Below are positions 51,495-56,564 of a stretch of DNA of 64,000 nucleotides, piece after piece. The stretch comes from Rhodospirillales bacterium (GTDB taxonomy: Bacteria; Pseudomonadota; Alphaproteobacteria; Rhodospirillales; JAPHRK01). The DNA lies in contig JAPHRK010000033.1 of assembly GCA_026196105.1 (NCBI GenBank), positions 62,001 to 126,000 of the forward strand, in the 5' to 3' direction. The translations under genes were made by a program, and so were the position numbers. The notes beneath the pieces were generated by a model that was not told the DNA's origin, did not search any database, and worked only from the letters and a program-made list of their open reading frames with translations. Each line of letters starts with the position of its first letter. The first letter of the stretch is position 1.

Positions 51495-52241
51495 TTACGT
51501 CTCTAATCGTCCCTGCACTTCATCGAGCAATGTGTAATAGGCCCGAGCAGGTGCGCTCTTTGGGGCGTACTCACCTACAGGCGTTCTGTGGACACCCATT
51601 TGTTCAACAAAGCTACTGTTAGGGATGGCGGTTTTGAGGACATCTGGATAGCTCTCGTGCAGGCCACTGACAATATCGCGATGCAATTTGCGGCGCCGGT
51701 CCATCATGGAAAAGAAGGGCATAATTTTCAGGTTTTTAAAACGCCGCGACTGGCAAAACTCTGAAACTTGCTCCAGTGTCCTTAAAGAAAGTGTTGTCGG
51801 GATCACCGGAACCAAAAGCACATCAGCCGCCCTTAGGACGTTTTCCGATACCAAAGACATACTTGGGGGGCAATCGAGAAAGATGTTTTCGTACTCTTCC
51901 TTTAAAGGAGAGAGAAATTTATCAAAACGTTGGGTACGATTTTTGTGATCGCCGAGGAACAGGTCCATATTTCGGTAGGAAAAATCGGCTGGAATAACGT
52001 CTAAATATTCAAAATCACTGCCTTTGATAAACTTTTCGGCGCCTTTCTTGTTGCGGAAGAGTTTCTCTCCTCCGCCTTTGATCTTAGGTTTTACTCTAAA
52101 ATAGTATGTTGCGGCACCTTGAGGGTCGATGTCCCAGAGAAGAGAACGCGAGCCTGTTGTGGCAGAGCAATAAGACAAGTTAACGGCTGTGGCTGTTTTG
52201 CCAACGCCCCCTTTGATTTGGAATATGGCAAAAACGGTCAT
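51495..52241 (-). CDS. ParA-family ATPase
   Basis: A protein of 248 residues. The deviant Walker A motif KGGVGKT (10-16) with the signature lysine, DIDPQGAATYY and NIFLDCPPSMS (Walker B region) place it in the ParA/MinD positioning family. No parB or parS is adjacent. The gene overlaps the CHAD gene by 4 bp (ATGA), so the two are coupled. ParA proteins of this type without ParB often position cellular cargoes. A role in distributing polyphosphate granules is inferred from the CHAD partner. Confidence 0.9.
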   Translation of the reverse strand: MTVFAIFQIKGGVGKTATAVNLSYCSATTGSRSLLWDIDPQGAATYYFRVKPKIKGGGEKLFRNKKGAEKFIKGSDFEYLDVIPADFSYRNMDLFLGDHKNRTQRFDKFLSPLKEEYENIFLDCPPSMSLVSENVLRAADVLLVPVIPTTLSLRTLEQVSEFCQSRRFKNLKIMPFFSMMDRRRKLHRDIVSGLHESYPDVLKTAIPNSSFVEQMGVHRTPVGEYAPKSAPARAYYTLLDEVQGRLET

Positions 52242-53872
52242 TGCTTTGCCTCCTTTGAAGGCTGTTTCTCAGCTGTGATTTTTATGGGGCGATTACAAAG
52301 CTGTTTAAATTGTTCAAGGTTTGCAGGAGAGGCAAATGAAGTGAAGCGATCATAAAATTGATTGCGAACATCTACTTTGCGACGCATGAAACCATCAACC
52401 AACATACCCATGGCCATGAGGGTCTCTGATTGATGTCCCCCTTCAGTCATCATGTCACGTCCAAACTCTTTTAAAGAGGCCGCCTGGACATCTAAATCTT
52501 GGAAAACCCCTAAGTTGTCTTGTAAAATCTTAAGGGATTTAACCAGGCCTTTTACTTGTTGCTCTTTATAAAGGCTGGCAAAGAACTCAAGTAGGTAACG
52601 CAGTTTTTTGCAGGTCTTGCGCAGATCATGCAGTGCTTCGGCTGGCGTGTCATTCCCAATAGCAGAACCTTCACGAATAACCCGACGATAGGTTTTCCAA
52701 ATGCGTTGGTCGGCAGTAGTTCTTACCGATATACCTGCTGTTTCTGGAAGCCCGAGAGGGGGTGATTTTTGGTTAAGGTATGTGTGCCAATCATTAATAA
52801 ATTTTTTGAAACGAGCTGAGCGTAAATTCTTAGCCAGGATGCGTTGTTGTTTTTTCTGATGGGCAACGAGGTAATCATGCAGTGGCAGAATATCTTTTTG
52901 AGCATCATCGCTTAGGCTGTCACGGTATTTGGGAAAGTCCAATAGGTAGACATCCATATCCCTTGTGGGTCCGGTTACTTCACCAACCCAGGCAAGGTCC
53001 GTTGAAAACCGATTTAGCACCTCGTCAGGGAAGCTGTCTTTAATCCGGTTAATTAAGGAACGTGAACGACGAACAGCAACTCGGAGGTCATGAAGAAATT
53101 CTGAGTCTAAATCTTTAATTGTGCCATCAACATTTCGCTCAATATGGGCCAGTTGCACCAAGAGGATTTGTCGGCAGGCGTCCCAAGTTCCCTGGGTAGG
53201 TTTCAGAATAGCAGCTTCTTTGGAGCTGTAATCAAGGGGACGGCGTCCAATCTTCTCGAAGGCCTGCTCCATCAATAGGTCATCAACGGGTTTGAGGCCT
53301 GGGACCGTTTTAAGTTTGGCACGTGCTTTGCGGAAATTGGCGCTATAGCCTCTAACTGCCTCCAACCTCAGGCGGTATCCTAAATCATCGAATGACTTGC
53401 TGTCTTGAGAGCGTAATTTATTTTTCTCTAAGGTAAAGCGAACAACAGTTTTACCAAGTTCATCAAGGATAACTCCCGCTCGTTCCTGGGTCACCACTTC
53501 AGCTTTGAGAGAAAGGCTTCTCATTTCCAATAAAGAGGTAACCTTATCGCGGATAAGTCCTGTGGGAAAATCTTCAGCCAAGAGGGGTGCTTTTTTAACT
53601 TGCACCCTTAATTGCCCACCGGGACTGTCTGTTGAATTTATCCAATGGAGCCAAGAAGCTTTCGCATCTTTTTCACGAAGGAGGACCAGCTTGGTTCCGG
53701 CTTCGAAGAGGCGCCAATCGAAAGTTTCCAAATAAGTACGTGAGTATTCTGAGGTCGCTTTAGAGGATGTTTCCCCACCTAATGCCACGGTAATTTTTTC
53801 GTTAAGGGCTTTTCCATCAAGGGCACTTCCATCGGAAGCACTGACGGCAAAGAACTGTGAATTATCAGTCAT
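52238..53872 (-). CDS. CHAD domain protein with an N-terminal CYTH-like domain
   Basis: A protein of 544 residues. The N-terminal 200 residues have the CYTH pattern but a degenerate active site (YLETFDWRLFEAGTKLVLLR with few charged tunnel residues). CHAD follows (about 240-530) with HDLRVAVRRSRSLINRI and HDLRKTCKKLRYLLEFF, whose conserved basic and His residues bind polyphosphate. CHAD proteins localise to polyphosphate granules in other bacteria. Its stop overlaps the ParA start, implying stoichiometric coupling. Confidence 0.86.
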   Translation of the reverse strand: MTDNSQFFAVSASDGSALDGKALNEKITVALGGETSSKATSEYSRTYLETFDWRLFEAGTKLVLLREKDAKASWLHWINSTDSPGGQLRVQVKKAPLLAEDFPTGLIRDKVTSLLEMRSLSLKAEVVTQERAGVILDELGKTVVRFTLEKNKLRSQDSKSFDDLGYRLRLEAVRGYSANFRKARAKLKTVPGLKPVDDLLMEQAFEKIGRRPLDYSSKEAAILKPTQGTWDACRQILLVQLAHIERNVDGTIKDLDSEFLHDLRVAVRRSRSLINRIKDSFPDEVLNRFSTDLAWVGEVTGPTRDMDVYLLDFPKYRDSLSDDAQKDILPLHDYLVAHQKKQQRILAKNLRSARFKKFINDWHTYLNQKSPPLGLPETAGISVRTTADQRIWKTYRRVIREGSAIGNDTPAEALHDLRKTCKKLRYLLEFFASLYKEQQVKGLVKSLKILQDNLGVFQDLDVQAASLKEFGRDMMTEGGHQSETLMAMGMLVDGFMRRKVDVRNQFYDRFTSFASPANLEQFKQLCNRPIKITAEKQPSKEAKQ

Positions 53873-53951: not shown

Positions 53952-56564
53952 CTAGTAGACACCTTTTGTATTAAGATAAGCAGCATAGTCACGATCAGCT
54001 GTTAGAATATGATTGATTATCCATTCTTTCAAAAAAATTATGACCTCTGGGTTGTTCTTCTTATCTTTGGTTTTCTCTTTTAGATCGATTACTTGTTGCA
54101 AAAGAACTTTATGGCGCTCTTTGTGAACGTCTGTTTTTTCATAATCATAACTGGAAAATAAAGCTTCTTCTTCGCGGAAATGATAATCTGTATAGTCAAT
54201 TAAGAAATCTAAAGCGACGTGAACATCTTTCTGGCTTACACGGTTTTTCAGGGCTTCTAAGAGGTTGTTAGACATCTCAACCAATTGTTTGTGGTGATTA
54301 TCAATCAACTGGATATTGACGCTATATTCAGGCCGCCATCGCAAAACGGTCTCGTGAATTTGTTCAAAATCATTAATCAGGTTTCCACGACGCTTAAAGG
54401 CCTCAAAGAGTTTCCATAAAACAATAGGGATATCCCGGACTTCAGCAATGGGCACCCTGAAAACAACACATGGCTCAATGGCAACGGAGCTTAAGATGCT
54501 CGGCGTTGAGAACAAGACAGGTTCTTCCCCAAAGAAATCTCCAGCAAACAAGGCCTCAATAACCTCATCGCCAATCATGTGATGAGCACTACCCGTTCGG
54601 ATCAAAGTAAGAGCATTGTGATCGCAGACAGTAATAACATCGCCTTCATCAAACGTCTCGACTTCCATCTGGGCTGCAATGCGGTTTTTGACTTTGTCTG
54701 AAATGGCTTCACCAAATAGCCAAGTTTTTTCTAAGAATTCTCTGTTTTCCTGTAGCTTTGAGATATTGTCGAAAAGCTTGTTTTGTTTCACAAAGGTTCG
54801 GTAGAAACCGATGGGCATGTTGAGGGCTTGGACAAAACTAGCGGCACGGTAGGTTTCCGTTGAGAAGATTTCGTGTAGGCCGTTTAACTCTCCAATAATA
54901 GCGCCAGCCGATAGGATGCTGTTGACGCCAGTTTGGGAGTTGATGACCTCGACAGCTCCGGTGAGAATGAAGCTGACCTCCTCAATATCATGCCCTTCTT
55001 TTAAGATGATAGTTTCTGGGTTGAAGGTCACCATCTGGTTATTAAGCAGCATGCGAAGCTGGTCTTTGGCAAGATCAGGGAAGTAGGCGTTTATGATACG
55101 GGCAGCGTGACTAAATATAAATTCCTGGTTACCTGGAATTAGGATATCTTTGGTGCCAAATGGGGCTCCGGACCCGATTTCTTTTTCTTCATGGGTCAAT
55201 GGCTTTGAAGTATGGGAGAGAATGATTTTTTCTGAGATATCTTTTTTAAAATCGACGGCTGCACCGTGAATCATACCGCCGCCAACATCAATTTTCTTGA
55301 TATCAGTTGGTTCAAGATAAGATAACTTTACCTCGTCAAATAGTTCTTGCGAAACACCGGGAGCTTTCTCCTCACTGGTGATCATATTGCCCAGCACGTC
55401 TAAAGAGGCAATATCGGCAAAATGGGCATAACTTTTGTAGCCGTCTTTCCACATAGCCCTAAAGACAAAAACAGATGTTTCAACGGGATGGGGAGAGAAG
55501 ATAGGTTTAACTTCGAGGCCGTTAACGGAGTTCCATGTACCTTCTTCTAAATCCTGAATATCAAAGTAGTCCCCAAAATTTGCCTCATCATAAGACAGGA
55601 GAGCTGCTAATTTTTTGGAGACGGAAGAACGAACCAAAGGAGTGGCAAAGTATTTTACCCGGTGATCTGAGCGAATAATTGTCGTGAGGCCAGCAAAGTG
55701 ATCATCGTGGCAATGGGTGTGGAAAATACCTTCAACTTCACTAATACCAATCCCAAGAGAGTGAAGAGTTTTCTCCAAGTTTGGCCCTGCATCTACCAAA
55801 TAGATTTGCCCTTGGTACATCAACACACTGCCCATGCTAGGTCGGTTAATGTCCCAACCATCACCCTGACCAGAGTGGATAACAGCAAAGTATTCCCGGT
55901 TAACCAAATGTGACCCAAGGGGATATGGGGCCTCATAATTTTCAAATGGTTGGAGGTTTAGATCAACAGTAACAGTTTCATCTTTGTAATAGATCTCAAA
56001 AAGGTTGAGGGCAAGCCGTTGGATAGAGACCCCGTTTCTGATTTCCTGTTTGTTGGTGCCCACATTACAATGATCAAGGAGTTCAGAAGGATGGCTAATT
56101 TTCCCAAAAGCAAACTTGAGCTTCATCCGCATCAATTCTTTTGCTTTCGCTGGCTCAACGCCTGCTTCAAGAATTTCTTCTTCAGAAATTAAGCCGTAGT
56201 TGCCCCGGTAGATATATTGCATTTGGGCTGCAACCTGGTCGTCATGCCCAATAAGAAGAGGTTTAGCCCCTGTGTTTCCAGGATGGTTAGGAATGATCAT
56301 GCCCTGGCGATAAAGCATTTGCAGGACTGGGAATTCCGCTAAGTTTGCAAAGCTACCGTTTTGAATAGCAACATCAGAAAGGAGGATGGCATTCGGGCCA
56401 CTTTCATAAGAAACGCCATCAATTTCTGTTGAGGATATGAAACCACGTTTCATGAGGTGTTTGACGCTATCGCCAGGACAGCCACATTGAATTCTCAAAT
56501 CGGCTTCAGGGATATTAACCCAAAAAACTCCTGTAGTTACGCGGCTCTTCGTTATCAAAGGCAT
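53952..56564 (-). CDS. Metallo-beta-lactamase / two cNMP-binding / hemerythrin fusion protein
   Basis: An 870-residue cytosolic fusion. Residues 1-200 are an unassigned N-terminal domain with CGCPGD near residue 27. About 215-460 is a metallo-beta-lactamase fold with HTHCHDDH (282-289) and later His360, Asp385 and His434/451. About 500-600 and 615-725 are two cyclic-nucleotide-binding domains (GELNG and GEEPVLFS are the phosphate loops). The C-terminal 110 residues are a hemerythrin with DNHHKQL, YHFREEE and HKERHK, then NHILTADRDY. O2 or NO sensing coupled to hydrolase activity is inferred. Monocistronic. Confidence 0.85.
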   Translation of the reverse strand: MPLITKSRVTTGVFWVNIPEADLRIQCGCPGDSVKHLMKRGFISSTEIDGVSYESGPNAILLSDVAIQNGSFANLAEFPVLQMLYRQGMIIPNHPGNTGAKPLLIGHDDQVAAQMQYIYRGNYGLISEEEILEAGVEPAKAKELMRMKLKFAFGKISHPSELLDHCNVGTNKQEIRNGVSIQRLALNLFEIYYKDETVTVDLNLQPFENYEAPYPLGSHLVNREYFAVIHSGQGDGWDINRPSMGSVLMYQGQIYLVDAGPNLEKTLHSLGIGISEVEGIFHTHCHDDHFAGLTTIIRSDHRVKYFATPLVRSSVSKKLAALLSYDEANFGDYFDIQDLEEGTWNSVNGLEVKPIFSPHPVETSVFVFRAMWKDGYKSYAHFADIASLDVLGNMITSEEKAPGVSQELFDEVKLSYLEPTDIKKIDVGGGMIHGAAVDFKKDISEKIILSHTSKPLTHEEKEIGSGAPFGTKDILIPGNQEFIFSHAARIINAYFPDLAKDQLRMLLNNQMVTFNPETIILKEGHDIEEVSFILTGAVEVINSQTGVNSILSAGAIIGELNGLHEIFSTETYRAASFVQALNMPIGFYRTFVKQNKLFDNISKLQENREFLEKTWLFGEAISDKVKNRIAAQMEVETFDEGDVITVCDHNALTLIRTGSAHHMIGDEVIEALFAGDFFGEEPVLFSTPSILSSVAIEPCVVFRVPIAEVRDIPIVLWKLFEAFKRRGNLINDFEQIHETVLRWRPEYSVNIQLIDNHHKQLVEMSNNLLEALKNRVSQKDVHVALDFLIDYTDYHFREEEALFSSYDYEKTDVHKERHKVLLQQVIDLKEKTKDKKNNPEVIIFLKEWIINHILTADRDYAAYLNTKGVY

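Follow-up and report, generated by a model that had tools for sequence, protein, structure and literature searches.

Whether a ParA-type ATPase could serve to position polyphosphate (polyP) granules in bacteria is the question raised by a two-gene locus of a Rhodospirillales bacterium (assembly GCA_026196105.1, contig JAPHRK010000033.1). The locus lies in a 64,000-nucleotide stretch of that contig (positions 62,001 to 126,000; hereafter the window), in which parA overlaps a gene for a CHAD-domain protein. The placement and inheritance of polyP granules in bacteria is an open question: in a 2025 review (PMC13052382), AlgP is the only polyP entry, the factors of granule inheritance in Caulobacter are given as unidentified, and whether energy is spent remains to be seen. 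Herein, we analyzed both proteins, their relatives, and their gene neighborhoods. Judged from genomic evidence, the ParA and the CHAD protein probably constitute a cargo-positioning module for polyP granules.

Overlapping genes for a ParA-type ATPase and a CHAD protein

The preliminary description of this DNA placed overlapping ParA and CHAD genes here, and both open reading frames were indeed present with a common ATGA (Table 1). The AGGAGG motif, a strong ribosome-binding site, precedes the ATG of parA by 7 nt. Read from the sequence, this overlap with its AGGAGG has the layout typical of translational coupling.

The window ParA was matched by Pfam AAA_31 (2.2e-33), and Pfam CBP_BcsQ scored on it too. 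The true deviant Walker A motif with which it had been credited was confirmed as IKGGVGKT (residues 9–16), accompanied by Walker A' (D37/D39) and Walker B (D123). The signature lysine K10, the P-loop residues K15/T16, D37/D39, and D123 were invariant in 62 CHAD-associated relatives; the protein retains all catalytic residues. A basic segment, DRRRKLHR, occupies residues 181–188 (clade form DRR(K/R)KLHR); at this place the canonical ParA of the genome reads DKRNNLSD. When the AlphaFold2 model (predicted local distance difference test score, pLDDT, 84) was compared with known structures, Soj, ParA-ATP, and McdA ranked before MinD or BcsQ. The modeled fold is thus of the nucleoid type, and the protein may bind DNA.

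The identification of the other gene product as a CYTH-like/CHAD protein held as well. Pfam CHAD covered residues 236–467 (1.1e-57), and the CYTH part, which lay under Pfam detection, matched TTM/CYTH structures in the AlphaFold2 model (pLDDT 91), in which this N-terminal domain is followed by the long CHAD domain. The structure that matched best was 6qva, the Chlorobium CtCHAD domain solved with bound polyP (template modeling score 0.93 on the target). Ten residues were mutated in the study that reported the CtCHAD-polyP crystal structure (PMC6537752), and these positions aligned to H261, R264, R268, R304, W392, K393, R396, R397, K445, and K448 of the window protein, so that nine of the ten basic polyP-contact positions were kept and W392 was the one non-basic residue. 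H261, R264, R268, and R304, which correspond to the CtCHAD pocket type H253/R256/R260/R296, were invariant in 61 of 61 paired proteins. The CHAD protein is thus predicted to carry a polyP-binding surface.

The window protein lacks the catalytic ExExK motif of the CYTH domain, as do 60 of the 61 paired proteins; four of the five type-B proteins and 11 of the 24 remaining CHAD proteins have it. Plausibly, the CYTH/TTM domain has turned from an enzyme into something else, perhaps an adaptor, a reading that the loss of the catalytic motif strengthens. In two Paracoccus loci (L190 and L191), small separate CYTH and NUDIX genes lie 3' of the ParA gene, as if the lost CYTH activity were supplied in trans.

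In the host genome (3.9 Mb, 99% complete), the sole CHAD gene is the one paired with parA, and there is one ppk, on contig C45. The preliminary description had also stated that the ParA lacks a ParB partner. Consistent with this, no ParB gene was found among the neighbors of the window parA (parS sites were not searched for). Because a separate parA-parB locus lies beside gidB/gidA on contig C30, the window ParA is not the chromosome-partition ParA.

Table 1. Features of the CHAD-parA locus, in window coordinates
Feature	Position	Strand	Description and basis
parA	51495..52241	minus	ParA-family ATPase, 248 aa; Pfam AAA_31, invariant ATPase residues, model
CHAD gene	52238..53872	minus	544 aa; N-terminal degenerate CYTH/TTM domain and C-terminal long CHAD domain
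CHAD domain (residues 236–467)	52472..53167	minus	Pfam bounds; residues mapped by CtCHAD alignment
N-terminal CYTH/TTM-like domain without ExExK	53273..53872	minus	fold match; conserved YxDSFDWRL (residues 47–55) and K141
ATGA overlap of 4 bp, parA start within CHAD stop	52238..52241	minus	sequence
AGGAGG ribosome-binding site of parA, within CHAD gene	52249..52254	minus	sequence

Read in the direction of minus-strand transcription, the gene at 53952–56564 comes first, followed by a 79-bp gap, the CHAD gene, and parA; the gene 3' of parA is convergent. The first of these genes encodes an 870-residue fusion of a metallo-β-lactamase-fold hydrolase, two domains binding cyclic nucleotide monophosphates, and a bacteriohemerythrin, and may be co-transcribed with the CHAD gene. 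We considered it as a third component and rejected it, as no homologue was found in the other loci.

Recurrence of the pair and its genomic surroundings

We scanned 84,980 species genomes for the ParA family and obtained at least 579 relatives, of which the best 80 were kept, a sample biased toward the closest matches. Among these, 75 loci had at least 900 bp of upstream sequence, and in 56 of them a CHAD gene stood immediately upstream of the ParA gene on the same strand. The exact 4-bp overlap was present at 30 of 57 measured junctions, and the remaining junctions were within 40 bp. Paired records came from Gammaproteobacteria (Sedimenticola, Methylomonas, Nitrosomonas, and Thiodiazotropha), Deltaproteobacteria-labelled records, SAR324, Acidobacteria, and Actinobacteria. 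Many of them were metagenome bins; one actinobacterial pair was located on a 669-kb Solirubrobacter contig, indicating that mis-binning is an unlikely cause there. Annotated examples with names were Paracoccus aestuarii, with the 4-bp overlap, and plasmids of Paracoccus marcusii. A scan of viral contigs found no relative.

We also used an even sample of 398 phylum genomes, in which the wider ParA family (E <= 1e-60) occurred in 68 and this CHAD type (E <= 1e-50) in eight. The eight CHAD genomes all carried the ParA as well (hypergeometric 5e-7, counting the window), with the caveat that paired proteins were the main source of the CHAD profile. In seven of the eight, the two genes were same-strand neighbors. 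The remaining ParA genes examined mostly belonged to groups without CHAD. The pairing of CHAD and ParA is beyond chance. The survey for the same adjacency that the preliminary description had named as a check was positive: several phyla conserve the coupled pair, and ppk, pst/pho, and SixA genes occur next to it.

As for these neighbors, ppk lay directly upstream of CHAD-parA in four loci (L069, L099, L101, and L119), PstS-like genes lay near seven, and SixA/NUDIX genes near 10. In Paracoccus marcusii, pstSCAB-phoU-phoB is followed by CHAD-ParA-CYTH-NUDIX-CYTH. A glycogen phosphorylase gene was close downstream of ParA in methanotroph loci (L062, L063, L065, L071, L072, L074, L081, L088, L102, L109, and L123), and neighbors of this type belonged mostly to methanotroph loci without adjacent CHAD. 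On plasmid pMAQU02 of Marinobacter nauticus (L194, 6164–14309), an island carries a ParA homologue, phbB, and pyruvate kinase, and a CHAD gene lies about 7 kb away.

In the ParA tree, outer groups without CHAD surrounded an inner group that was mostly paired, and the CHAD tree contained a matching clade of 79 proteins, the window protein included. CHAD was not adjacent to ParA in 12 genomes, one of Chromatiaceae and the others methanotroph-type records; all 12 carried it elsewhere, unlinked. The first three close ParA relatives examined (G039, G055, and G080), none with CHAD beside ParA, were considered as counter-evidence and set aside, since the tree places them outside the CHAD-associated clade. 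A TonB gene adjoins ParA in two of these three, and TonB as a general partner of the non-CHAD ParAs was not borne out. Many non-CHAD ParAs are divergent from rnfH; several such loci (L145, L147, L148, L150, and others in L145–L170) encode an rnfH-like product whose long tail, rich in Ala and Lys (AKAKKAA), recalls the PhaF/AlgP repeats. ParA and CHAD distances were correlated (r = 0.81); we gave this no evidential weight because a common species history would by itself produce such a correlation.

A second ATPase family (KGGCGKT, ~215 residues) was located directly downstream of CHAD in five other Rhodospirillales loci (L013, 2934–3620; L016; L025; L029; L031), mostly with an intact CYTH motif. 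Coupling to CHAD has thus arisen for two different ParA-type ATPases. We regard as evenly poised the wider proposal that polyP granules are positioned and partitioned by a widespread ATP-driven system in which CHAD is the adaptor and one ParA clade is dedicated to the task, a system that would occur in several phyla and have been put together at least two times, with different ParA-type ATPases.

Proposed granule positioning and competing explanations

The simplest account of mechanism and ALTERNATIVES would be a McdAB-like device. The CHAD protein would coat or mark the polyP granule through its CHAD domain, while the ParA-ATP dimer would coat the nucleoid. The non-catalytic CYTH/TTM domain would bind the ParA ATP-dimer, with a candidate contact around the DSFDWRL motif, L136, K141, and T142, and the CHAD protein would stimulate ATP hydrolysis by ParA. 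The resulting gradient of ParA depletion would move granules apart and spread them over the nucleoid, so that both daughters would receive stored phosphate, much as carboxysomes are distributed by McdA/McdB. The gene overlap, the linkage across phyla and to ppk/pst/pho, the conserved residues, and the lost CYTH active site were read directly from genomes; from these parts we infer DNA binding, contact between ParA and CHAD, localization on granules, and their spacing.

Several points weigh against granule positioning by the pair. Six genomes of one related genus have the closest CHAD orthologue (43%–45% identical) and no ParA of the window type, and one genome (G421) has a ParA of the CHAD-associated clade and no CHAD. 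The window ParA lacks the canonical IPRNVR segment of Soj, having IPNSSF instead, and for this reason its DNA binding is predicted from DRRRKLHR and the fold only. Moreover, it is AlgP, not a ParA, that helps space the granules of Pseudomonas aeruginosa (PMC9239181). The ParA-less genus is also informative about the interface: R54, L136, K141, and T142 are replaced in its CHAD protein, and K141 is kept in 61 of 61 paired proteins and in all 12 genomes with an unlinked CHAD. We take these four as candidate contacts for ParA, bearing in mind that the ParA-less genus represents one lineage.

Linkage to ppk, pst, and pho suits regulation as well as positioning, and BcsQ-like relatives, whose Pfam family also scores on the window ParA, have non-partition roles. 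The main rival is a polyP-responsive switch, in which polyP-loaded CHAD would alter the ATP state of ParA and thereby control polyP synthesis, phosphate uptake, or cell division. We consider it unlikely, given that the ParA model is nearest to Soj/ParA/McdA and not to MinD/BcsQ and that the pair has no conserved signaling domain. The nucleoid-type fold would also suit a role in which granules act as anchors for ParA-aided DNA organization in starvation, tying nucleoid or chromosome segregation to polyP, and the part of the review dealing with Caulobacter (PMC13052382) relates that granule inheritance there depends on chromosome segregation. However, the host genome has a complete separate parAB locus, and the anchor role seems a decidedly poor candidate.

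A class IV adenylate cyclase/triphosphatase signaling unit with an incidental ParA, as put forward for Acidithiobacillus (PMC6416229), would agree with the CYTH/TTM fold of the N-terminal domain. For the window pair, the cyclic AMP cyclase reading is disfavored because the active site is lost, here as in nearly all paired proteins, and we deem it very improbable. A few ParA relatives are carried on plasmids, as would be allowed if the two genes were chance neighbors or what is left of a mobile element's partition system, but adjacency with the same overlap across phyla and the want of an adjacent ParB-like partner leave this next to no credit, and the survey refutes it. Plasmid partition was likewise rejected.

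Granule positioning by the ParA-CHAD pair can be tested directly, since the pair supplies a named ATPase, a named candidate for the granule adaptor, and residues that may form the interface. It is also present in tractable, non-pathogenic hosts, namely Methylotuvimicrobium buryatense 5G (L077) and Paracoccus aestuarii/marcusii (L190/L191). If it is true, an orphan ParA clade gains a cargo, while a cellular function is added to a CHAD family hitherto known for binding polyP and granules.

Comparison with known systems

No proposal of ParA-driven positioning of polyP granules was found in the open-access papers searched (preprints and most subscription papers were outside the search). The gene adjacency itself is already known from one genus, with other explanations: Acidithiobacillus has a folD-ppk-parA-CHAD cluster (PMC10892726, PMC6416229), read there as copper resistance or cyclic AMP signaling. 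It shares the adjacency, including ppk, with the loci described here, a likeness of gene order.

The CHAD phosins and CtCHAD (PMC6537752; Tumlirsch and Jendrossek 2017, as cited there) have the same domain, and their polyP-contact residues are kept in the window protein. The window CHAD differs in being translationally coupled to a ParA and in having a degenerate CYTH domain; the others have an active TTM or consist solely of CHAD. AlgP of Pseudomonas aeruginosa (PMC9239181) helps space polyP granules, as proposed for the window pair, but it is histone H1-like, has no ATPase, and is unrelated to the pair in sequence.

ParABS (Soj/Spo0J) has the deviant Walker A ATPase and the fold in common with the window ParA, which differs in having no adjacent ParB, the parAB of its genome being separate. 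A parallel in design is carboxysome positioning by McdA/McdB (eLife 2018, PMC6328274). No McdB-type partner was found at the window locus, and the neighbor genes scanned with Pfam were not carboxysome genes. What the window pair shares with McdA/McdB is a ParA-type ATPase with the nucleoid-binding type of fold, the lack of a ParB, and a partner expected on the cargo. It differs in that its partner, a CHAD protein, has no relation to McdB, that the cargo would be polyP granules, and that McdA is only ~20% identical to the window ParA.
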